A DNA stretch of 64,000 nt, from positions 1 through 64,000 of the IMG/VR virus record IMGVR_UViG_3300020171_000018. The stretch is one strand, 5' to 3'. Origin of the DNA: a virus. The notes below the pieces were generated by a model that did no database searches, was not told where the DNA came from, and saw nothing but the letters and a program-made list of their open reading frames with translations. Positions 2,566 through 63,852 of this stretch are shown here, piece after piece. Position 1 is the first letter of the stretch; the number at the start of each line of letters is the position of its first letter. Made by a program: the position numbers and the translations under genes.

Positions 2566-2787
2566 ATGGTGAGCGCAAAGGTTCAGCCCTTACCTATCGA
2601 GATTCAGGCGCTGATAGACGCACAGCAGGCCGCCATCGCTCAGTGCGATGGTGAGCTGGCGAGCCTACAAAAGGCTGTGGATAACTGGCAAGCGCAGAAG
2701 CAGGCGGCGCTTAACGGAATCAAGGCGCTCAAGTTCAAGTACGGCAAGCCTGGCCTGACGGTATGGCCCCCAGAGGTAACGCTATGA
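2566..2787 (+). CDS. Small coiled-coil protein
   Basis: 73 residues, strong ribosome site (ATAGGAGACGAAC before ATG). Residues about 12-50 form an alternating Ala/Gln/Leu helix, likely a coiled coil. Its TGA overlaps the next gene's ATG (ATGA), which points to translational coupling with the LamG protein that follows. It may be a fibre connector or chaperone; that is inference from position. Confidence 0.65.
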   Translation: MVSAKVQPLPIEIQALIDAQQAAIAQCDGELASLQKAVDNWQAQKQAALNGIKALKFKYGKPGLTVWPPEVTL

Positions 2788-4127
2788 AGACGCCCCTCCC
2801 AATCACGTTCAGAGAACGCTGGGAGTTCTCGGGGACTCGTGGCCTCTTCGTGCCGACGGGCTGTGGCGGCGGTCATCCATTGACCGCCACAGGGGCGCAG
2901 AAGGGCACCACAGCCGACGGCGTGCACTTCACAGGCGCTGCTACCAGCAACATCGTGGTCACTGCGGCTGCGGGCCAGAACGCCCAGCAAGCCTTCCACA
3001 TCACCATCAGGTTTAAGCTCGACCAGACGTTTGCGGCTGGAGCAGCGGCGGACTTCTACCTCTTCCAGAAGCTACTGGCTGCCGACGATTACCTGCGTGT
3101 CTATCTGGAGAATGCCGATGGCAAACTCTACTGGATACAAGGTAACGCGGCGGGTGGTGTTGAGTTTACACTTACCTCTACAACGGTATCCTGGACAGCG
3201 GGCACTTGGTACACCGTGACTGTGAGCCTTACGAACACACCCACACAAAGGCTATTGGTTAATGGGACGGTTGAGGATACGGACACGGTAGCCACTCCTG
3301 TAGCCACTCCCAACGGCGGCGACATGGTAATTGGTTCTTCCTCTGACGGTGGGACAGACGGCGTCGTAGGCACCATCTCCTGGGTGGTCATCGGCGTTGG
3401 CGCTACGGCGGCGACGGCCCTAACCGCAGCCGAGGAGAGTGACCTGAGTAAGGGCGCCCCGCCGCCTACAGCCAAGGTCCAGTATATGTACTTGATGGAC
3501 GAGGGTCGAGGCGTAACGGCCACAGACCGAGGCAGTGCTGGTGGCAACGGTACGCTGGACACGGCCTGCGCCTGGCAGTACGGACAGGTGCAGCAGCCAG
3601 TCCTGAGCCTGGATGGGATAAACGACCACGGCGACAGTTCCAGTGGAGTTGACATCGGTGGAGACATAACACTCGTGCTGGTGATAAAGGCCAAAACCAC
3701 GTTTGCCGCTGCCGTGGCGAATGGGTTTCTATTGCAACTACGCATTGACGGTAACAACTACCTCGTGCTTCTCAACACCCCCACGACAATAATCAAGTGG
3801 CGCGCTGTCGTGGGCGGGGGCGTAAGTGATATTGACTACATAACCTCCTCTGTGATAGACGATTACCTGATACTGGTTGGTACGGTAACAGTGGCTGGTG
3901 CTCAGGCTTTCTATGTCAACGGCGCGCTAGTGAACACAGCGGCTGGCGGCGGGGCTACTTCCCATGCCGCTGCGACTGCATACTTTGGTTCGGAAGCAGG
4001 CGCTGGAAACTTTGACATCAACAAGCCCATCTATTCTGCCCTGATTGAAGGCGCGCTCACTGCTGCCCAGGTCAAGGCGTACTCCCGCTGGCTGCGGGAC
4101 AGGTTCAACCTGCCAGTGAGCATCTAG
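2784..4127 (+). CDS. Double LamG-domain fibre protein
   Basis: 447 residues. I chose ATG 2784 because it has AGAGGT at the right distance and overlaps the previous stop. Two jelly-roll units follow each other. The first ends with QRLLVNGTVEDTDTV and GDMVIGSSSDGG. The second begins near VLSLDGINDHGD and ends with AFYVNGALVN, YFGSEAGAGNF and LIEGALTAAQVKAYSRWLRD. This is the usual repeat of LamG/concanavalin folds. Probably a carbohydrate-binding tail appendage. Confidence 0.75.
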   Translation: MKTPLPITFRERWEFSGTRGLFVPTGCGGGHPLTATGAQKGTTADGVHFTGAATSNIVVTAAAGQNAQQAFHITIRFKLDQTFAAGAAADFYLFQKLLAADDYLRVYLENADGKLYWIQGNAAGGVEFTLTSTTVSWTAGTWYTVTVSLTNTPTQRLLVNGTVEDTDTVATPVATPNGGDMVIGSSSDGGTDGVVGTISWVVIGVGATAATALTAAEESDLSKGAPPPTAKVQYMYLMDEGRGVTATDRGSAGGNGTLDTACAWQYGQVQQPVLSLDGINDHGDSSSGVDIGGDITLVLVIKAKTTFAAAVANGFLLQLRIDGNNYLVLLNTPTTIIKWRAVVGGGVSDIDYITSSVIDDYLILVGTVTVAGAQAFYVNGALVNTAAGGGATSHAAATAYFGSEAGAGNFDINKPIYSALIEGALTAAQVKAYSRWLRDRFNLPVSI

Positions 4128-8255: not shown

Positions 8256-9179
8256 ATGTATTATGGCGACGTAAATGGTGACAATTCCATTGACATGGGC
8301 GACGTGCTCAAGGCTCAGGCCATCGCCGACTTCAACGCGCTCTATCCGCCAGTAGCAGCCGGCACCAAACGCTGGACTGTCACGTATCTCGCAGGCTACG
8401 GTATGTGGGTACGCGCTGACAGCCAGGATATGTCAGGCTGGAAGTACATAGTCCAGTACGACGAGCAACCCGGCATATGGCACGGCCCGCTCACCGAGCA
8501 GGAAGTGCTTGACCAGTGTGGCATGACGGTGGATGTGCTGACACGGGCTGACGTTGACGGTGATGGCGTTGTCACGCAGGCCGACGCGGGCTTGATTCAG
8601 CAGTACATCATGGGGATGATAACCCAGTTCCCGGTCGAGGTAGTACCAATAGAACCACCAGCAGAAACAGAATTGGTAGTAGGAGGAAGTATGCCAACCA
8701 GAACAATCACCGCACAAGGGGTCATACAAAACGCATCGTTGGTCTCCATCACCTGCGCTCTGCGCCTAGAGGTGCAGACGTACAATGTCGCCAGCGGGGG
8801 TACTCCGCTTGCCGGGGGTGGGAGCGTACAATCCAAGACGGGCCTTGTCCTAGCAAAAGCGCCCGAGGGGATATACGTCGTTGGGGCGCCTGCGGGCTAT
8901 ACTCCCAACCCAGCCCAGCCAGCCTTCTCGTACTCAGTGAATGTGCCCGAGGGTGGACGGGTAGAGGCACGGATAATACTCGACATCGTGTCCTGGGAGG
9001 GCAAGACAGCGGGGGAGTCCGCGAAGTTCGACTTCGCCGTCACGCCCTGGGTGGTCAGGCTGGAGTCCGTGATCTCAGCCGGATTGGTGAGCTGGGGCAC
9101 GGTCATAGCCGGACGAGGAGGGCGTGGGGTAGGGAGTAGAGCAGGGGGCAGGATGGGGATGCTCTCAGGGCAGAGCTAG
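8256..9179 (+). CDS. Split dockerin plus beta domain protein
   Basis: 307 residues, ATG preceded by GAGAAGGGGG. Loop one of a type I dockerin (GDVNGDNSIDMGD) is at the N-terminus. Loop two (ADVDGDGVVTQAD, then LIQQYIMGMITQFPVE) comes near residue 95, with an insert of about 65 residues between them. The C-terminal 160 residues form a beta-rich domain (TITAQGVIQNASLVSITCAL to WVVRLESVISAGLVSWG) ending in a Gly/Arg tail. A dockerin interrupted between its halves is unusual. Together with 4675-5001 it suggests calcium-dependent docking in the virion or at the cell surface. Confidence 0.7.
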   Translation: MYYGDVNGDNSIDMGDVLKAQAIADFNALYPPVAAGTKRWTVTYLAGYGMWVRADSQDMSGWKYIVQYDEQPGIWHGPLTEQEVLDQCGMTVDVLTRADVDGDGVVTQADAGLIQQYIMGMITQFPVEVVPIEPPAETELVVGGSMPTRTITAQGVIQNASLVSITCALRLEVQTYNVASGGTPLAGGGSVQSKTGLVLAKAPEGIYVVGAPAGYTPNPAQPAFSYSVNVPEGGRVEARIILDIVSWEGKTAGESAKFDFAVTPWVVRLESVISAGLVSWGTVIAGRGGRGVGSRAGGRMGMLSGQS

Positions 9180-36238: not shown

Positions 36239-38791
36239 TTACGCCCTTGTGGTCTTGTGGTAACTTGCGTCTCCCTTGAACCCCGTAGTGCCCGTCTTTC
36301 GGTACTCCCCAGACTTCTCGTTGTACCGATACCAGTGGTACAAGCCGCTTTTACGCACGCCAATGAGGCCACTGGGGTCACTATACCACCCCTTCGCCTT
36401 ATCTAGTTCCTTGACGCCTGTGGCACCTGGGTTGCGGAAGATGATGCTCCCGTTGACGTTGTAGAGCTGCGGGGCGGTCTTGAGCTCACCCCTGTTGGCG
36501 GCGTCCAGCTCTTGGAACGGGATAGAGTCGGGGTTCTTCTTCCCGCCCACCCCCTTTGCCCCTTTCACCCCTCGCACCCCCCTAGCCCCCCTGATGTACT
36601 CATGGAGCGCCCCAGGGTACGCCTCAGGAGCAGCCCTAGACTCAGTGGGCTTGGTCTCAACCGTCCCCTCGGTGTGGACAAGGCCCCCTGGGGTGGTTGT
36701 GGACTCCAGCACGGACTCAGGAGCGGGGGCATCGGGGAAGTCGGTGATGGAGCTGGCGTCCATCTCCCCAAAAGTGGGGTTGCGCTTGCCCTTGTGGTAG
36801 TGCGGCCCAATGTACCGCTTGCTGCCCTTAGTAAGTTGGTGCCCAATTGTGGCTACGAGGCCCTCTCCTTTTGCATCGTGGTAGTGCCTAGGGCCATGAT
36901 GGGTCACTTTCCCGCGCCGAGAAGCATGGGTGTGCCAGTAGCCCTCTGGGTTTTGGGGGTTCTGCAGGGGCGGCTCAATCACCCTCCCTTTATCCCCAAG
37001 AGCTGGCGTCACCAGCGTCGCCAGCTCCTTCTGAGAGGTGTACTCCTCAGGGCCGGGCTGGATTGACACCCCAGCCCCGCAGCCACTGCACCGCCCGACT
37101 CCTACTGACCCAGACTCGAATGGTTGACCACAGGACGGGCATTTTAGCTCTGAAACGATTGACATTGGATTCTCCTTCCTTCTACCATATGTTCCCCCAG
37201 AGTGCCCATACCCGCCACGCTGCTTGTGAGGGGATGGGGCATTGGGGGGTATAAACGAGATTATAGGGGACTCCAAGGCCATCTCAAGGTTCAGGTATGC
37301 CACTGTGCTACTCCAGCCAGAGTGGGCCTTGGCGAACTCCTTGGCCGCCCAGACCATTCGAGCGTGCCTGCTATCATCTTTACCCGCAAGGGCAGCTCTG
37401 GCAAGGTGATAGAGGTTCACAAGCTCAGCCTGTTCCCTTTTGTTGGCATATCTACTGGGATTCTTGCTCATATCAGCCTTCTCTCTAACAGGGCCTAGCC
37501 ACTCCTGACCCTTGCCCTTCTTCAACCCCAACTCTTTCAGGTACGCAAGGTCTCCTGCTGTGATGCTACCTTTGCCCTTGAAAGTCAACACATACTGCAC
37601 GGACGCCACGGGGCTTGGCCCAAACCACCCCGTAGGCCCAATGACTAGCTGCCCCTGAGCGTCCCACCTATTCGCTCTGAGCGTCCACCCAGGGGACATA
37701 CGAGACAGGTCTGGCATATTGGTGGGATTCATGGTGAACAGTGGCAGCATCGCACCCCTCCAGGCACTTGGAACCTTCGGCCTCTTCAGCTTCTCCCCGG
37801 TATCGCTCTTATAGTAGTGCTCCGCCATCCTGTCGTAGTACGTTTCCAGCTTCTTCAGCTTCTTCCCGTACTTCCGGCGTAGCTCTTCCTGCTCTTTGTA
37901 GACGGGGAACTGGGCATGACCCATCTCACTCCACTCCAACATGCGCTTCGTCTTGAGCTGGACCTCAACGGGCAGGCCGTTCGACTCAACAAGCAGGTGG
38001 TAGGAGCGGTACAGGCCCTTGGGCTGGGTTATGTAGTCCTCCTCTTCTATCACATTGAACTCGCCACGAATCTTTTTCAGTCCAGCGTACAGGGAGTCCA
38101 AGGTGGAGAATACGACGCGGACGCCCGCTATGTCGGTTAGTGAGGATAGCTCAGTACCCCGCCTAGTCAGCTTCTCCATGATGCTCTCCACGGTCTTTAG
38201 CCGGGATGAGACCTTGCCGGGGAACATGCGCTCCAACTCTGTAGAGACCTGAGATAGGGACTCCCGGTAGCGTGCCTGGTACGCCTCGATGCTTGTGTCA
38301 CTGAGGCCATTGGATCCCTCTGGGTTCCCCTTGGGCATCGTCTCAGAGGTGGTCAGCCACATTTTGTGACCCAATCCCAGCTTCTTAATCTCCTTCTGGG
38401 CGTCCCTTAGGCTACCAGCGAACACTAGCTTGCCATCGGAGACTCTGAATATCTTGTAGCTGGTGCTCTTGGGTATGGGGTTCCCGCTTCCTTCCTTGGT
38501 CTTCTCCAACAGTCCCAGAAACGCCTCGACCACTTCAGCCTCTGCCGCCATCTTGGTAGTGGCCCTTCTCGACCCCAGTTTCCTAGAGCCATCCCAGATA
38601 GCCCACTCCCAATCGTTGTGACCGAGCCTCTTCACCGCCGCCGAGTATTCCTGGAGGCCAAGGTAGGTCTCCCTGTCAGGGTGCAGGGCCTCCCATTCGT
38701 CATGCCCCACAGAGCGCCAGGCTACCTTGTCCCGCATCTCCTGGAGGGCGAGCCGGCGCCTCATCAGCTTGAACTGTGTAGTCAAGGGCAT
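36239..38791 (-). CDS. Multidomain protein with RelA/SpoT synthetase-like domain
   Basis: 850 residues. Residues about 175-330 match the RelA/SpoT nucleotidyltransferase: TDIAGVRVVF (Asp220), DYITQPKGLYRSYH (Lys258, Tyr261, His265) and VEVQLKTKRMLEWSEMGHA (Glu276, His292). These are the positions that make (p)ppGpp-type alarmones in known enzymes, so activity is possible. No hydrolase domain is seen. A zinc ribbon (CPSCGQPF, then CSGCGAG) comes near 540-565, then a His-rich part. Motifs of type GNP, KNP or RNP recur at domain borders (GNPIP, KNPSRY, KRNPTF, KKNPDS, FRNPGA). It lies in the presumed virion module and may be cut into pieces or carried in the particle. Confidence 0.7.
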   Translation of the reverse strand: MPLTTQFKLMRRRLALQEMRDKVAWRSVGHDEWEALHPDRETYLGLQEYSAAVKRLGHNDWEWAIWDGSRKLGSRRATTKMAAEAEVVEAFLGLLEKTKEGSGNPIPKSTSYKIFRVSDGKLVFAGSLRDAQKEIKKLGLGHKMWLTTSETMPKGNPEGSNGLSDTSIEAYQARYRESLSQVSTELERMFPGKVSSRLKTVESIMEKLTRRGTELSSLTDIAGVRVVFSTLDSLYAGLKKIRGEFNVIEEEDYITQPKGLYRSYHLLVESNGLPVEVQLKTKRMLEWSEMGHAQFPVYKEQEELRRKYGKKLKKLETYYDRMAEHYYKSDTGEKLKRPKVPSAWRGAMLPLFTMNPTNMPDLSRMSPGWTLRANRWDAQGQLVIGPTGWFGPSPVASVQYVLTFKGKGSITAGDLAYLKELGLKKGKGQEWLGPVREKADMSKNPSRYANKREQAELVNLYHLARAALAGKDDSRHARMVWAAKEFAKAHSGWSSTVAYLNLEMALESPIISFIPPNAPSPHKQRGGYGHSGGTYGRRKENPMSIVSELKCPSCGQPFESGSVGVGRCSGCGAGVSIQPGPEEYTSQKELATLVTPALGDKGRVIEPPLQNPQNPEGYWHTHASRRGKVTHHGPRHYHDAKGEGLVATIGHQLTKGSKRYIGPHYHKGKRNPTFGEMDASSITDFPDAPAPESVLESTTTPGGLVHTEGTVETKPTESRAAPEAYPGALHEYIRGARGVRGVKGAKGVGGKKNPDSIPFQELDAANRGELKTAPQLYNVNGSIIFRNPGATGVKELDKAKGWYSDPSGLIGVRKSGLYHWYRYNEKSGEYRKTGTTGFKGDASYHKTTRA

Positions 38792-39427: not shown

Positions 39428-41602
39428 CTAGCTCACCATCAGAGTGGCACCACAGTCACACTGGTACACCCCGGGGTCAGGGTTCCCGATTGACCCCTGG
39501 CATGAGGGGCAGCTCAGAGATGGGTTCCTTCCGGGATTGCTCCTTCTGGGATTACCTGGGTTAGCCTCCACCGTCTTTGCCCCTGCTACCAGACTACTCA
39601 CCACCTCTTTACTCGGTGCCGCCACAAACAGCGGCATGATAACGATGTCCTGCATGACGCTCCCTGAGAACGTCCCGGGGCTGCTCTCGGTAGTCAGACC
39701 CACTGATATGGTCTCGGTCTCCTTGAACGTCCTGACAACGGTGTCACTGAGGTAGCTTGCGTCAAAGGCTATGTACCGTCTCTTGTCTTGCCCCGTCCAA
39801 TCTCCATTGAGAGACGCTGGCACCAGAGCGGCCTTGGGGTCAGAGTACGTGAATACCAGCAGCCTATCTCCGGCTATCCCCACTGTGCTCCAAGGCATGA
39901 ACCCCACCTGTTTGGACTCCTTGTACCTACCAGTAATCAGGCCCCCAGTTTCCGCAAGGGCCGCCACCAGTGCCCCAGCCCTCACATCGAAGCCCCACTC
40001 CTGCCCGGAAGGGATTAGTTGGGGGTAGTTGGGGAACTTGCCTAGTATCCCCTTGAACGATTGCTCCTTATCCCCAACGGCCACAACCAGACCGGGGACA
40101 TCGCTGACCTCGGTGCTGATAATGCTGCCTGCCCTGTTCTTGTTCACAAAGGTCTCATAGCTGGATACTGGAACGAAGTCAATCAGGGCCTTGCCACCCT
40201 TGAGTGCCTTTGCAGGTATGCCAGACGCCCACTTTGCCAGCTCCTTAGCGGGGATGTTGGCCGTCCAATCACCCCTCCCCGCAGTCTCTAGGGTCAGTGA
40301 TGCGTGGGCCAGCCGGAACCCGTCCGCCGCTGCCAGGTCTAGGAGCTCCCCCTGCTTCTGGATGTTGATGCAGGTAAGAGTGGGCCTTGCTCTGTCGGTA
40401 GCAGCGTACAGGGTTATGCGCTTGATTACGTCCACGAGCAGGTTGGCACTGATTGTTGAGGGGTCACCAGCGGGCTTGCCAATCCTAGACTTGGCTACCT
40501 CCTCAGCCTCCTGAGCAGCTTTGGCCTCAGCAGCCTCCTTCTGCTTCTTGCGCTCGGCGGCCTCCTTGACCTCTTGAATGGCCTGTTTCGCCAAGGGGTG
40601 GAGAGGCTTGACCTCATCCTCTGGGCCCCATCTACCGCCGCTGAACAGGTCGGAAGGCCCACCCAGCACGCCTACCGTGTCATCGCTTTGAGAGACGGGC
40701 CCTACCCCGACCTCCAGACTGTTTGCCTCCTCTAGGACCGGGCTGGGTGGGGGCAATTTTACCAGAACGAACTTCCCCTGCACATTTTGGAACTCCTCAC
40801 CGCCTTGGGCCCCCGCAAACATAATGGGGAGAGAGTGCTTTGCTAGACTCTCTTCATGTTCCAGCCAGCTCCTCCAGTGCGGGTCAGCCTGCAACTCCTC
40901 CTTTGCTACAGCCCTAATGTAAGCTACATGGTGGGCTCCGTCAGCCCCCAACCAAGAGGCCATCTCATACCACTGGCCCAGTTTGAGCCCATATTTGTCG
41001 GCCTGCTTTTGGCGTTCCCCCTTGACCCTAGCTAGGGCCTGCCGTGATGCCCACTGGTAGCCGAATAAGGACCGATTGAACTTGCTTGTCTTGACCGCCT
41101 CACCCAGCCCCACAATCCGGCTAATGGTCCGTCCCACCTTGTTGTTGCCTACAGGCTTGGGAGGGTGCATGGTGTCCATATTGGCCCACCGCACGGCCTC
41201 CCAAGCAGACGGCTCACTATGAACCCCTCGCTCTCTGGTAAGAATCTCTCGTAGCCTCTCGGTGCTAGGCTTGCCCCCGTACCTAGTGGACATTATCACG
41301 TACCCCTCAGGGCCCTTCACTAGGTAGTAGTCCAGCCGTGGGTCCCCATAGCGCCCAGTAGTGCCGGGTTTGGAGGCGTATAGGACGGGCGTCTCGGTTA
41401 TCAGCCCGTCCAAGGCAGCAATAGCCTGTTGCTGGGTGGCCTCAGCATCGGCAACAGCCTTGTCCAGCTTAGCAGCCTCACGGTCATACTCCCCTTGGTC
41501 TGGGGTAGAGGGGGGCATAGTGGTCTCCCCACGGTGGGAAGCCTCTACAGCCCAAGGTTCGCCAGCCTGTACATGCTCCTCAAAGGGCGGATTGCGGGAC
41601 AT
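39428..41602 (-). CDS. Protein with sliding-clamp-like domain and zinc-ribbon end
   Basis: 724 residues from ATG 41602 (AGGAGAGTGAGC upstream; GTG 41608 is too close). N-terminus SRNPPF, unknown first half, charged coiled coil (about 345-375). Residues about 385-660 follow the bacterial DNA polymerase III beta clamp: LLDLAAADGFRLAHASL, NIPAKELAKW, KFPNYPQLIPSG, then YIAFDASYLSDTVVRTF, ETISVGLTTE and VIMPLF. Clamps encircle DNA and tether polymerases. The end has GNPRRSNPGRNPSLSCPSCQ and CDCGATLMVS, a zinc ribbon nearly identical in style to the ends of 36239 (internal) and 41622. Confidence 0.6.
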   Translation of the reverse strand: MSRNPPFEEHVQAGEPWAVEASHRGETTMPPSTPDQGEYDREAAKLDKAVADAEATQQQAIAALDGLITETPVLYASKPGTTGRYGDPRLDYYLVKGPEGYVIMSTRYGGKPSTERLREILTRERGVHSEPSAWEAVRWANMDTMHPPKPVGNNKVGRTISRIVGLGEAVKTSKFNRSLFGYQWASRQALARVKGERQKQADKYGLKLGQWYEMASWLGADGAHHVAYIRAVAKEELQADPHWRSWLEHEESLAKHSLPIMFAGAQGGEEFQNVQGKFVLVKLPPPSPVLEEANSLEVGVGPVSQSDDTVGVLGGPSDLFSGGRWGPEDEVKPLHPLAKQAIQEVKEAAERKKQKEAAEAKAAQEAEEVAKSRIGKPAGDPSTISANLLVDVIKRITLYAATDRARPTLTCINIQKQGELLDLAAADGFRLAHASLTLETAGRGDWTANIPAKELAKWASGIPAKALKGGKALIDFVPVSSYETFVNKNRAGSIISTEVSDVPGLVVAVGDKEQSFKGILGKFPNYPQLIPSGQEWGFDVRAGALVAALAETGGLITGRYKESKQVGFMPWSTVGIAGDRLLVFTYSDPKAALVPASLNGDWTGQDKRRYIAFDASYLSDTVVRTFKETETISVGLTTESSPGTFSGSVMQDIVIMPLFVAAPSKEVVSSLVAGAKTVEANPGNPRRSNPGRNPSLSCPSCQGSIGNPDPGVYQCDCGATLMVS

Positions 41603-41621
41603 GCTCACTCTCCTAGGCAGC

Positions 41622-45225: not shown

Positions 45226-45456
45226 TTACCTCCCTTGACCCGGTTGACCGCGCCTTGGTTGACCGCGCCCCCGGGTGTCATATGGGGCGTTTATGTATCG
45301 CTCGACCTCCACGGCGTCAACATACAGGATTCCCCGTACCTTGACCCCGTGGAGGTCGTTGGCCTTTATCATGCGATAGATGGTGATGAGGGGCTTTCCA
45401 AGCTCCTGAGATACCCTTTTGACCGTCAAGAGAACTAGGGAGCCGTCATCCGCCAC
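45226..45456 (-). CDS. Excisionase-type helix-turn-helix protein
   Basis: 76 residues, GTG start. LTVKRVSQELGKPLITIYRM, then GVKVRGILYVDAVEVERYI, is the winged helix of the excisionase/MerR-like DNA-binding family. It is the first gene behind the promoter at 45504-45533, so it may regulate the virion operon or act with the integrase, which is about 30 kb away. Confidence 0.7.
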   Translation of the reverse strand: MADDGSLVLLTVKRVSQELGKPLITIYRMIKANDLHGVKVRGILYVDAVEVERYINAPYDTRGRGQPRRGQPGQGR

Positions 45457-45503
45457 GTCAACACCACCAATTTCTACAAGTTTTTCAGCTTTTGATACCT
45501 AGA

Positions 45504-45533
45504 ATACTACCCCCTTTATCACGTTGTTGTCAA
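45504..45533 (-). promoter_or_regulatory. Promoter of the leftward virion module
   Basis: Minus strand: TTGACA at 45533-45528, 18-base spacer ending in AAAGGGGG, TAGTAT at 45509-45504. The AAAGGGGGT before the -10 box is shared with the promoter at 23100. It overlaps the stop of 45530-45832. Confidence 0.65.
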
Positions 45534-45832
45534 GTGGCCCTCTTAGATGAAGCCAACAGCTCCTTGTTGGTCGGCCCCATACCATCCCCGGTTCGCCGAA
45601 GTGCGTCAAACAACGTTTCAAGCTCGTCCCTGCATCTGGTACACAAGTTGAAGCCTGTACGTGGAGGCTCCGTGCCGGGAGGGTTTGCGCAATGATGCTG
45701 GAACCTCGTATCTACCCAGGCGCGGTGCCTATCGCAGGTATCCTTCTTGCACATCGCACAGGCGGTACTGGCCTCGTCTGGGAGAGTTGGTTCACACAGG
45801 TCACAGATATAGATTACCTTGGTTGTCTTCAT
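45530..45832 (-). CDS. Cys-rich zinc-binding protein
   Basis: 100 residues from ATG 45832 with AAGGAGG. CDLCEPT, CAMCKKDTCDRH, HHC and CTRCRD give at least two zinc sites. A similar C..CxxDxCxxH pattern is in 59555-59848. Function unknown. Confidence 0.6.
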   Translation of the reverse strand: MKTTKVIYICDLCEPTLPDEASTACAMCKKDTCDRHRAWVDTRFQHHCANPPGTEPPRTGFNLCTRCRDELETLFDALRRTGDGMGPTNKELLASSKRAT

Positions 45833-48202: not shown

Positions 48203-50839
48203 TTATCTCCAATCTAGCTTCTCCATTTCGCCCCACCTGTACCCCACCTTGGCATCGCACGGCGTCGGCACGTCCAACTTCACCGCCGACTCCATGATTG
48301 GCACAACCAGTCCCGCCAGCTCCTCCACCTCCCAGGCCGGGCACTCAAACACCAACTCGTCATGCACCTGTAGAATCATCCTGCCCTGCAACCTAGCCTT
48401 TTGGAGTGCCCAGTCAATCCGTATCATGGCTATCTTGAGGATGTCTGCGGCTGTCCCTTGGACCGGCATGTTGACGGCCATCCTGATGCCCTCAGCCCGC
48501 TCCTTCCTGATTGGCGAGTAGGCCTCAGGCACCCACCTCACCCGATTGAACATATCTTTGACCCACCCCCTCTCTAGTATCTCAGCCTCTTTGGTCTTCA
48601 TGTAGGCCCTGACACCTTGATACGTCTCAAACCAGGTGTTCAGGTGCCCCTGCCAGTCCTCCACGCCGATGTTCCTGTCCTGCTTGTAAAGGCCCATCGC
48701 CGAGATGCCATAAATGACGCCGAAGTTGACCCTCTTGGCGGCCTTCCTCTCATCGGGGGTTATCTGCTGGGCCAACTTCTCGTACATATAGGTTGCGGTC
48801 TCGGCGTGAAGGTCCCGCCCCTCCCTGAACGCACGCAGCATTACAGGGTCTTGGCTGAGATGGGCCATGCAGCGCATCTCTATCTGTGAGGCGTCCACCG
48901 ATAGCAGCACCCAGTCCCAGGATGGGGCCGTAAACACCCTACGCACCACCAACCCGTACCCCTCTACAGGTACATTCTGTACATTTGGAGCCTCGGATGA
49001 GAGGCGCCCAGTCGCCGTCCGGGTCTGCTTGTAGGTGGTTCGTATTCTGCCATCTGGATGCACAATCCTGGGGTACACGTCTATGTACGTCCCCTTGAGC
49101 TTCTCTATCTCCCTGTGCTCCATGATGGCATCCACAACCGGGTGCCGGCCCTTCAGCTCCTCCAGCACATCATCGTCCGTGGAGATGCCACCAGTCGGGG
49201 TTCGCTTGGTGGGCTTCAACCCTAATCTGTCGAACAGGAGCCACGCCACCTGCTGGGGAGAAGATACGTTGAAGGGTGTCCCTGCCTCCCACCACACCTG
49301 GCCCAGGGCGTCCTCCAACTTCTCAGCCATCTCCTTGGCTATCCGCTCGTTCTCAACCCTGTCCCAATACAACCCCTGAGCTGTCATGCGGTTCAGTATG
49401 GGCACTAGGGGCAACTCTATATCCCACAGCAGTGACCCCATATCCCAATGCTTGATTTGGCGTTCGAGCACCGGCCTGAGCTGGTGAGTTGCGATTGCGT
49501 CCATCGCTGAGTAGCGAACCCACTTGGCCTCAGTGGGCACATCAGCGATGGTCGGGTGAGGCACCGTTAGCCCCGTGGCCCGCTCTATGGCCTCCCTCTC
49601 CACCGCCTCAAGGTTCCCTACCAGTTTGAATCCGTCCGCCCCCTGCCCCACCTTCTTGGCCATAGATCCCAGCTTCCTCTCTAGGGGCTGGTGCTTGTGC
49701 GTCTTTAGCAGGATGTCGGTCTTGCCTTTGTTCCACTCCCACCTGTCCTCTGGGGGCATGGGGCCGTACTTGTGCTTGGCGGCCTCCAAGAGGTAGCGTT
49801 TGACCTTCTCGGCCCCATACTGGCCCACTAGGTCATCGTAGCGGGCCATCTTCAAGCCAAGGTCACGGTAGGCCAACTCTTTCAGGGCCTGACTCTCCTT
49901 CCCCAAAAGGTAGGCCGCAATCATGGAGTCAAACACGGTCTTGTCAACCTTGATACTGACCGACTCAAGGACTCTTACATCGTAAAGTGCGTTGTGCATC
50001 ACCACCACCAGCCCGGGCCTGTTCAGGGCCTCAGTTAGCCTCTTGGCCCCGTCTGCCCCCAGGTCATCCCGATGCACCACGTACCCAGTCCGACCATCCG
50101 TGCTAAATGACATGCAGAACAGGCCCCGCTCGTCTGATTCTGTGTCCACCGCCACACTAGGGGACTGGCTGATGGCCTCCACCACTGTGTCCACACTTAC
50201 TCTGATGGTCACGAGGTCTGGTCTGGAGTTGTCCCTGCTGAACCTCAGGCCATCCGCCAGAAACGCCCCTAGTGCCTTGAAGTCATCCATCACCAGCTTC
50301 CTGAACCGGGCCTGCCTGAGTCCCGCCGCCGGGTGATAGCATGGGAACACGACCGTCCTATGCCCCGCCACCATGACCTCCTTGGGCAGTCCATGAGTCT
50401 GGCTGACTGTGAGAGTGGGATCATTTAGCACCCAGCGAATCGCAGCGGCACCTACGGGGATGATGAGCTTGGGGCGCATGGCGCGAATCTCATCAACTAG
50501 CCAAAGAGTGGTGCAGATGGAGACCGCTTCTTCTGGGGGGGTGCCACTCCCCGTGGCGCTTGACAGGCAATTTATAGTATTAGTGAGCAGCACCCCTGTT
50601 CTGCCCAGCCCCGCTATCTCCAACAACTCATTCAGGTATCTCCCGGCGTTTCCAATGAATGGTATGCCCCCCGATTCAGGGTCCGCCTCTTCCTTGCCGG
50701 GCTGCTCCCCAATCAGCATGACCTCTAGCTCATCGTCGGCCCACCAAGGGGGAACAGGGATACCGTGCTTGCCAGCCAGGGAGCAGGAGGCGCAGGAGCG
50801 CACGCCGTCAGCTATCTGGGAGAGTTGGGTGGAGTTCAC
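48203..50839 (-). CDS. Uracil-DNA glycosylase fused to family A DNA polymerase
   Basis: 878 residues, GTG start overlapping the methyltransferase stop. Residues 1-200 are a family 4-like uracil-DNA glycosylase: Fe-S cysteines C16, C19, C91, C109, the active-site GEQPGKEEAD and PFIGNAGR, and HPAAG. Residues about 225-330 are the 3'-5' exonuclease (VDTESDERG, HNALYDVRVLE, FDSMIAAYLL). The polymerase follows with motif A DASQIEMRC (~650), motif B RKAAKRVNFGVIYG (~703) and motif C QVHDELVF (~825). Motif A has Ala where Tyr is usual (DYSQIE). The fused enzyme could remove uracil while copying DNA. Confidence 0.9.
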   Translation of the reverse strand: MNSTQLSQIADGVRSCASCSLAGKHGIPVPPWWADDELEVMLIGEQPGKEEADPESGGIPFIGNAGRYLNELLEIAGLGRTGVLLTNTINCLSSATGSGTPPEEAVSICTTLWLVDEIRAMRPKLIIPVGAAAIRWVLNDPTLTVSQTHGLPKEVMVAGHRTVVFPCYHPAAGLRQARFRKLVMDDFKALGAFLADGLRFSRDNSRPDLVTIRVSVDTVVEAISQSPSVAVDTESDERGLFCMSFSTDGRTGYVVHRDDLGADGAKRLTEALNRPGLVVVMHNALYDVRVLESVSIKVDKTVFDSMIAAYLLGKESQALKELAYRDLGLKMARYDDLVGQYGAEKVKRYLLEAAKHKYGPMPPEDRWEWNKGKTDILLKTHKHQPLERKLGSMAKKVGQGADGFKLVGNLEAVEREAIERATGLTVPHPTIADVPTEAKWVRYSAMDAIATHQLRPVLERQIKHWDMGSLLWDIELPLVPILNRMTAQGLYWDRVENERIAKEMAEKLEDALGQVWWEAGTPFNVSSPQQVAWLLFDRLGLKPTKRTPTGGISTDDDVLEELKGRHPVVDAIMEHREIEKLKGTYIDVYPRIVHPDGRIRTTYKQTRTATGRLSSEAPNVQNVPVEGYGLVVRRVFTAPSWDWVLLSVDASQIEMRCMAHLSQDPVMLRAFREGRDLHAETATYMYEKLAQQITPDERKAAKRVNFGVIYGISAMGLYKQDRNIGVEDWQGHLNTWFETYQGVRAYMKTKEAEILERGWVKDMFNRVRWVPEAYSPIRKERAEGIRMAVNMPVQGTAADILKIAMIRIDWALQKARLQGRMILQVHDELVFECPAWEVEELAGLVVPIMESAVKLDVPTPCDAKVGYRWGEMEKLDWR

Positions 50840-62587: not shown

Positions 62588-62677
62588 GGCTCTCTTCTCC
62601 TCTCTACTATTGCTGCCCGCCGCTCGGCGTGTGTACGCTACCCTCTGCCCCGTCGGGCAAAGTCGCCGATACCTGAC

Positions 62678-62711
62678 AGTAGACACGGCGGGCTTGCTGG
62701 CGCTGTCTACT
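62678..62711. terminator. Hairpin after the lipoprotein gene
   Basis: AGTAGACA (62678-62685) pairs with TGTCTACT (62704-62711), 18-base loop. It covers the lipoprotein stop codon. No T-run follows, so the terminator role is tentative. Confidence 0.4.
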
Positions 62712-63102
62712 TTGGCATCTCAACGTCAATATCAGGTATGATAACGGATGGCCTGAATATCACCCTGTAGCGGTAGGCGTCCGCGCGTACAGGTTCCAGT
62801 TGCTCCACGAAGTAGCTGACGTTGTCTGATAGGCCCAGGAAGTGCTTCTTGTAGGTGCTAGGCCCTACCTTGCAAGTCACAGAGAGTTCACTTGACGGGT
62901 CATAGTTGCCTAGTGAACACAGTCCTTCGATAGTTAGCAGGTATGTGTCCGTGATGCCGTTGAAGAACACAATCCTACGTGTAACCTCGAATTGGTCTGC
63001 CGCCTTTGATACGTTCTTTGAAGCTACGTCCGCTTCTGAAGAACAGGCTACCAGGGCCAGGACGCCGGCAACGAGGACGAGTAGGCACAGTAGCTTCTTC
63101 AT
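62707..63102 (-). CDS. Beta-sandwich lipoprotein
   Basis: 131 residues from ATG 63102 (AAGGAGGAGAC). Signal MKKLLCLLVLVAGVLALVAC with the lipobox Cys at position 20. Then FEVTRRIVFFNGITDTYLLT, LSVTCKVGPSTYKKHFLGLS and YRVIFRPSVIIPDIDVEM. This matches a lipoprotein family seen in many phages; proposed roles include envelope modification and superinfection exclusion. Here the function is unproven. Confidence 0.8.
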   Translation of the reverse strand: MKKLLCLLVLVAGVLALVACSSEADVASKNVSKAADQFEVTRRIVFFNGITDTYLLTIEGLCSLGNYDPSSELSVTCKVGPSTYKKHFLGLSDNVSYFVEQLEPVRADAYRYRVIFRPSVIIPDIDVEMPK

Positions 63103-63127
63103 GTCTCCTCCTTCAATTAGTGGGCTT

Positions 63128-63656
63128 GCTGGCGCTGGCCCAGCTTGCGCACTGCTTTCGGGTGGTCTCCACCACCAGCGCCAGCCTTGGCAGCCTTGCC
63201 GCAGGAGAACTTGCCCTTTCGGGTAGCTGTCGTCCCACGACTGCCCTATCCTTCCCCGCCGACTGCCACGGGAAGGCCCTTGCCCTCCCTGACGGAGCGG
63301 GCCCCTCAAACTGGCGGTTGCGCTTTTGTCTGTGGCCCTCTGCCACCACGTCCACGCCAGTTATTAGGCATTGTAGCGTGCTGGCACCCCTCGTCTATTA
63401 AGGCATCTCCTGATACGTCCACAAGAGTCTGGCAACTCACCAGTCCGAGCCTGTGGACTGCTCTTGTGCTGGACTCCTAGTTGTCCGCACATGCCACCAG
63501 CACGCTACGACTCAGAGCCTACATTAGTCTCCATCGCCGACCGGACACTTCCACCAGGCCACTGCCATCCTTTGGCGACTCCGGCAGCACCTACACCGTT
63601 CTGGTTTCGCGGTGTCCACGATACATCGTCTCGTGAACTCGCCCTCGGCTCTGAGT
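63128..63656 (-). ncRNA. Candidate large structured RNA
   Basis: The 594 bases between the lipoprotein and 63697-63852 hold no credible gene but have several perfect inverted repeats: 63128-63138 with 63175-63185 (11), 63309-63316 with 63355-63362 (8), 63373-63384 with 63497-63508 (12), 63510-63519 with 63647-63656 (10), and inner stems at 63421-63427/63461-63467 and 63441-63446/63455-63460. On the minus strand CCC-GAAA-GGG gives a GNRA tetraloop (near 63221). Transcription could come from the promoter at 63905. Class unknown; large phage RNAs such as GOLLD and ROOL are of this order of size. Confidence 0.5.
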
Positions 63657-63696
63657 AGTCGCCTAAGTCGTTAAAACCCTTCTACGGGCTACCCAC

Positions 63697-63852
63697 CTAC
63701 GTTGACTTTGGAATCCCTATAGGCTCCACAGGCTCCACAGGCTCCACAGGCTTCTGGCAACGAGGGCATCGGCGCACCTCTACCTTCCGTGGAGCCCAAC
63801 TGTGCCCGCAGAAGGCGCAGGTGACCATAGTTACTGGGACGTTGACCGGCAT
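63697..63852 (-). CDS. 51-residue zinc-ribbon protein with VEP repeats
   Basis: CGGAGGTTTGCA before ATG. CAFCGHSW and CPRCQKP form a zinc ribbon, then three tandem PVE units from a 9-base direct repeat (63721-63750). First gene behind the minus-strand promoter. Confidence 0.65.
   Translation of the reverse strand: MPVNVPVTMVTCAFCGHSWAPRKVEVRRCPRCQKPVEPVEPVEPIGIPKST

Follow-up and report, generated by a model that had tools for sequence, protein, structure and literature searches.

A Candidate Structured Non-coding RNA of About 580 nt Without Match to the GOLLD and ROOL Models in a Viral Genome

Introduction

To our knowledge, few classes of giant RNAs carried by phages have been described, and their purpose is unsolved. 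ROOL assembles as an RNA-only cage via kissing loops and A-minor contacts, and its location near tRNA islands is frequent, not obligatory. Both ROOL and GOLLD are often found near tRNA islands, and GOLLD often exceeds 800 nt (PMC12286853).

The window analyzed here comprises 64,000 nt, i.e., positions 1 to 64,000 of the IMG/VR virus record IMGVR_UViG_3300020171_000018 (record length 85.8 kb). A previous sequence-only reading of it had marked a gene-free stretch with many perfect inverted repeats as a possible large phage RNA, which could be a new or divergent relative of GOLLD and ROOL, or a processed leader. The reading with the best support, by folding as well as by the lack of a coding signal, is a large structured RNA of the minus strand; a processed leader of the next gene is less likely, and divergent membership in GOLLD or ROOL is not supported.

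Locus and Coding Content

The stretch (63104-63696) is situated between a 51-aa ORF (63697-63852, minus strand) and a 131-aa lipoprotein gene (62707-63102, minus strand). The 51-aa product is labeled a zinc-ribbon protein on weak Pfam matches, all under the cut-off, and its gene ends exactly at the 5' helix of the RNA candidate; a 9-nt tandem repeat (VEPVEPVEP) is located within this ORF at 63721-63752. The promoter that had been described upstream together with one small gene was likewise recovered as a sigma-70-like sequence, TTGACG-17-TATCAT (63905-63877, minus strand), which agrees with the consensus at 10 of 12 positions and is a consensus match only. No terminator was found at the locus, and next to it lies a divergent region of about 780 bp without coding content (63906-64684).

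The supposed absence of genes held up as well. A codon-usage scan trained on the large genes of the same genome detected no coding signal in the frames of 63220-63700, none of eight translated ORFs or frames of the stretch had a match in PHROGs or Pfam at an E-value of 0.1, and one of its longest ORFs had zero matches in phage DNA. In this respect, the stretch has what is expected of a large structured phage RNA, namely no protein-coding frame.

Inverted Repeats and Folding Energy

A search for perfect arms with an arm span of at most 200 bases revealed five inverted repeats of 8-12 bp, instead of the four originally counted, in an ordered arrangement over 529 bases (63128-63656), in agreement with the approximately 530 bases and the repeat sizes given before. 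These are 11 bp at 63128-63138/63175-63185, 8 bp at 63309-63316/63355-63362, 12 bp at 63373-63384/63497-63508, 8 bp at 63420-63427/63461-63468 and 10 bp at 63510-63519/63647-63656, with the repeat 63420/63461 overlapping and competing with a more stable helix (63417-63425/63450-63458). The stems were compared with dinucleotide-preserving shuffles and with 341 equally long segments from all over the 85.8-kb record. At least five stems of at least 8 bp occurred in 1 of 200 shuffles and 19 of the 341 segments, and three stems of at least 10 bp in none of the shuffles (0/200) and no other genome segment (0/341). The best non-crossing stem sum of 56 bp was reached by 0/200 shuffles and a single segment out of 341.

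Folding both strands against shuffled sequence, a check suggested along with the first observation, resulted in -260.8 kcal/mol for the minus strand (z about -4.1) and -225.6 kcal/mol for the plus strand (z about -4.7), with 0/100 shuffles as low on either strand. Among 206 size-matched stretches of the same genome (593 nt, both strands), the two strands of the candidate take the first two ranks, their energies being -31.6 and -29.5 kcal/mol below their own shuffles vs. a mean of -0.9 (sd 9.1) for the others. The neighboring sequences showed no folding excess, neither the lipoprotein coding sequence (z -0.2) nor the upstream non-coding region 63906-64684 (z above +1). Both the folding energy and the long stems thus exceed chance, as is expected of a large structured phage RNA. 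Nevertheless, strong folding energy is not in itself the mark of an ornate RNA, since the ROOL RNA of plasmid pMP118, measured in the same way, has a z no lower than -1.5 on its true strand.

Due to the perfect inverted repeats, both strands are foldable and similarly unusual by z, so that the choice of strand is indirect. The minus strand is favored as the better RNA strand because of its tighter fold, its more numerous well-defined pairs (>0.8; 40% of bases vs. 27% on the plus strand), its purine-rich loops, a GAAA hairpin, and the common direction of the flanking genes and the promoter-like site. The hairpin loops of the minus strand consist of 78% purines, a proportion as high in 3/100 shuffles, and this purine richness is confined to one strand. 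The GNRA tetraloop that had been noticed on the minus strand is indeed present, with one such loop in the hairpin CCC-GAAA-GGG (63223-63214).

Predicted Architecture

From closing helix to closing helix, the candidate large structured RNA covers about 579 nt of the minus strand (63119-63697; predicted fold, z -4.1, no coding signal). The closing helix P1 (GGUGGGU/GCCCACU, 63697-63691/63125-63119) has a mean pair probability of 0.97 in the isolated RNA; it opens with the final base of the zinc-ribbon stop codon and stops a few bases short of the lipoprotein gene's ribosome-binding site. P2 (UUAGGC/GCCUAA, 63666-63661/63369-63364, mean pair probability 0.65) encloses P3 and P4. The predicted P3 domain (63510-63656) consists of a 10-bp helix (63656-63647/63519-63510) and inner hairpins including 63638-63631/63621-63614, while the P4 domain (63373-63508) features a 14-bp helix (63508-63495/63386-63373; 12 bp Watson-Crick) and two inner hairpin arms, with a pair probability of 0.96 that is also found in a transcript of 1164 nt. 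Toward the 3' end, the predicted fold continues with the P6 domain (AACUGGCG/CGCCAGUU, 8 bp, 63309-63362), the P7 hairpin (63289-63270), the P8 domain (63268-63188) with the CCC-GAAA-GGG hairpin inside it, and P9, a 12-bp helix (63185-63174/63139-63128) with inner hairpins (63128-63185), all on the minus strand. In the fold of the 1164-nt transcript (63870-62707), P4, P5, P7 and most hairpins are kept, and P1, P2, P8 and P9 lose most of their pair probability, which may partly result from competing pairing with flanking gene sequences.

Known RNA Families and Homologs

Scanning the whole record with Rfam 15 (cmscan) gave zero matches at the gathering score. In the kilobase around the stretch, permissive filters up to an E-value of 5 yielded a single chance match, and no group I or group II intron was matched at the stretch. 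The best Rfam match, Methylosinus-1, is due to chance (11.9 bits vs. a gathering score of 145.1). Neither the ROOL model (RF03087; membership needs at least 99.1 bits) nor the GOLLD model (RF02032; conserved 3' region; membership needs at least 150 bits) matched anywhere in the record at an E-value of 10. Plasmid pMP118 served as positive control with 130.4 bits over the full ROOL model, a control that covers ROOL alone. The record contains no tRNA and hence no tRNA cluster or island, and ROOL and GOLLD were likewise absent from 50 virus records carrying the lipoprotein gene. By the covariance-model searches that had been recommended, the candidate belongs to none of the Rfam 15 families, GOLLD and ROOL included, and the idea of a divergent GOLLD or ROOL member is not supported.

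A search for homologs as a source of compensatory changes, covering phages, plasmids and about 70 virus records overall, yielded zero homologs. By blastn, the stretch found none in phages at E-values of 1e-5 and 10 and none in plasmids, and comparison with the 50 records carrying the lipoprotein gene returned only short chance-level matches. A 16-nt pattern of the P4 stem gave chance hits only in viral contigs, and a P4-domain covariance model, which has low power because it derives from one sequence, detected no homolog in 50 records. Since no relatives were found, the structured RNA remains a candidate.

The Virus and Its Further Features

Searches for sibling viruses via the zinc-ribbon protein, a DnaJ-like protein, the DNA polymerase, an ATPase candidate, the helicase and the transposase revealed no closely related virus, the DNA polymerase alignment reaching relatives of just 28-44% identity. 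By the proteins tried, the collections searched, which may omit near records, thus contain no close relative of the virus, and the carrier of the RNA is best read as an orphan temperate virus. No terminase was found among the proteins scanned in the record, so that the virus, unusual in its size of 85.8 kb, might be non-tailed. For a possible capsid protein and the ATPase candidate, single-sequence structure prediction gave results of too low quality for use.

Several further features of the genome were recorded. These include a Walker-type ATPase candidate (GRRNSGKTT ... CAVILDD) along with a run of small orphan proteins (L092:7066-8676 and L093; record 63001-85802), a DNA polymerase A fused with an N-terminal uracil-DNA-glycosylase domain (48203-50839), an 850-aa viral protein with a RelA/SpoT domain (36239-38791) and, in a 726-aa protein (39428-41608), the central domain of the sliding clamp of DNA polymerase III. 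Besides, virus-encoded dockerin type I and laminin-G-like lectin domains are located at 8256-9179, 102-821 and 2763-4127. A second RNA was considered at 45301-45600, the most stable of the genome's 300-nt stretches, and rejected, as this is a coding helix-turn-helix gene with a hairpin; the strong imperfect 26-nt hairpin lies at 45303-45358 inside this small, excisionase-like gene.

The Lipoprotein Gene and the 3' Edge

The lipoprotein gene corresponds to Phage_VG64 (PF25682) and phrog_478, annotated as RDF, and shares 57-73% identity with its 80 best relatives in other viruses. PHROG 478 denotes a recombination directionality factor, yet the gene product starts with a lipoprotein signal (LVAC), so that the labels conflict.

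An observation not contained in the earlier note is an exact 16-bp direct repeat, GGGCTTGCTGGCGCTG, which brackets this gene, with one copy at 63122-63137 and the other just past the gene at 62690-62705 (both plus strand). A repeat of this length was found in 2/1000 shuffles of the 1316-bp region, and the greater part of P9's 3' strand as well as the GCCC of P1 fall within the first copy. As the repeat brackets the lipoprotein gene and one copy forms the 3' helix of the RNA, an insertion of the gene at the 3' edge of the RNA is suggested. A recent arrival would also fit with the 57-73% identical relatives of this gene, given that no close relative was found for polymerase, helicase and ATPase candidate. 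That the gene family as a whole behaves as a mobile cassette was rejected, as flanking repeats of at least 13 bp occurred in only 3 of 44 relatives, with about 1% of control positions featuring repeats of at least 12 bp.

Just past the second repeat copy, a second structured intergenic stretch (62590-62712, minus strand, z -2.2) is predicted to adopt a compact three-way fold, in which a 9-bp closing helix (GCCCGCCGU/GCGGCGGGC) surrounds two hairpins. Joining the RNA to this stretch without the lipoprotein insert resulted in a 684-nt fold with a z of -4.6. Hence, 62590-62712 is possibly a displaced 3' end of the RNA, which may once have extended into this stretch before a lipoprotein cassette was inserted at its 3' edge.

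Interpretation and Alternative Explanations

Most likely, with a probability of roughly 0.55, 63119-63697 is the gene of a large structured non-coding RNA (about 580 nt) on the minus strand. The reading is based on the lack of a coding signal and of protein matches, on stem and energy statistics beyond all shuffles, and on a predicted fold that fits exactly between a stop codon and a ribosome-binding site, with neighbors lacking such structure. Transcription would start at the promoter-like site 63905-63877, include the zinc-ribbon gene of 51 aa and probably continue into the lipoprotein gene. The part of the transcript that follows the stop codon and precedes the next ribosome-binding site is predicted to fold as serial long helical domains closed by a helix of the 5' and 3' ends. 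The RNA might then be cut out of the polycistronic transcript or persist from it. If it resembles ROOL and GOLLD in this respect, it could function in infection or lysogeny as a stable RNA scaffold or as a particle that assembles itself. The lipoprotein gene would have been inserted later and is flanked by 16-bp copies of the 3' end of the RNA itself.

The position of the stretch, which ends a few nucleotides ahead of the lipoprotein ribosome-binding site, would suit a long structured leader or intercistronic mRNA element that controls translation or stability of the lipoprotein or zinc-ribbon gene and has no independent life. An 11-nt segment within the RNA candidate (63447-63457), which is antisense to the tandem repeat of the zinc-ribbon ORF (19/1000 shuffles reach 11 nt), could serve as a switch, and the change of the helices near the 3' end in the longer transcript points in the same direction. 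However, six hundred nucleotides are long for a leader, and ORFs occupy most of the sequence ahead of the lipoprotein gene in its relatives, so that no such leader accompanies the gene elsewhere; a linkage of RNA and lipoprotein gene was not seen in other viruses. Moreover, the direct repeat suggests the gene to be the later arrival, in which case the RNA would predate its supposed target. A leader is therefore regarded as unlikely.

Debris is present in phage genomes, and the zero homologs as well as the past insertion suggested by the 16-bp repeat could be explained by a decayed remnant of dead genes or a dead mobile intron, the inverted repeats being leftovers or chance. Long perfect stems decay quickly, yet the three stems of at least 10 bp lie beyond all 341 genome segments, and neither a group I/II intron or other Rfam match nor any protein similarity was found, which makes a remnant quite improbable. 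Very improbable is a DNA-level element, i.e., a replication origin or a packaging or recombination region with the inverted repeats as DNA hairpins or protein sites. The similar z-scores of both strands, the adjoining non-coding divergent stretch and the direct repeat at the edge would be consistent with such an element, but the stretch contains no iterons (arrays of repeated short sites), its stems are all different and arranged in ordered nested domains, the purine-rich loops occur on one strand only, and the adjacent 63906-64684, the likelier origin, is unstructured.

A structured RNA at this site could further represent a large ornate RNA of a new class, without relation to GOLLD or ROOL, whose virus would be temperate and possibly not an ordinary tailed phage, with the RNA gene split or trimmed at its 3' edge by a lipoprotein cassette flanked with copies of the RNA 3' end. 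In its entirety, this reading is tentative and rather doubtful. If true, one more class without relation to the others, in another type of virus, would mean that such RNAs arise repeatedly, and one RNA with two small neighbor genes would offer a clean system for testing the role of giant RNAs.

Comparison With Known Systems

With the structured intercistronic and leader RNAs of phage operons, the candidate shares the site between two co-directional genes, but it is far longer, has many domains and shows no terminator/antiterminator pair. GOLLD is likewise a large phage-encoded structured RNA, whereas the candidate lacks a model match at an E-value of 10 as well as tRNA, and GOLLD is often longer (PMC12286853). 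ROOL differs in that the candidate has neither a match to its model at the same E-value nor a tRNA cluster, and in that the fold is here predicted only. It is encoded by phages, prophages or plasmids, and no protein partner is known (PMC12286853). Without a model match and without tRNA, the candidate belongs to neither family by test, and it may still work like them. Its length of about 579 nt vs. 574 positions of the ROOL model and its predicted multi-domain fold resemble ROOL, and its function is perhaps like that of ROOL or GOLLD.
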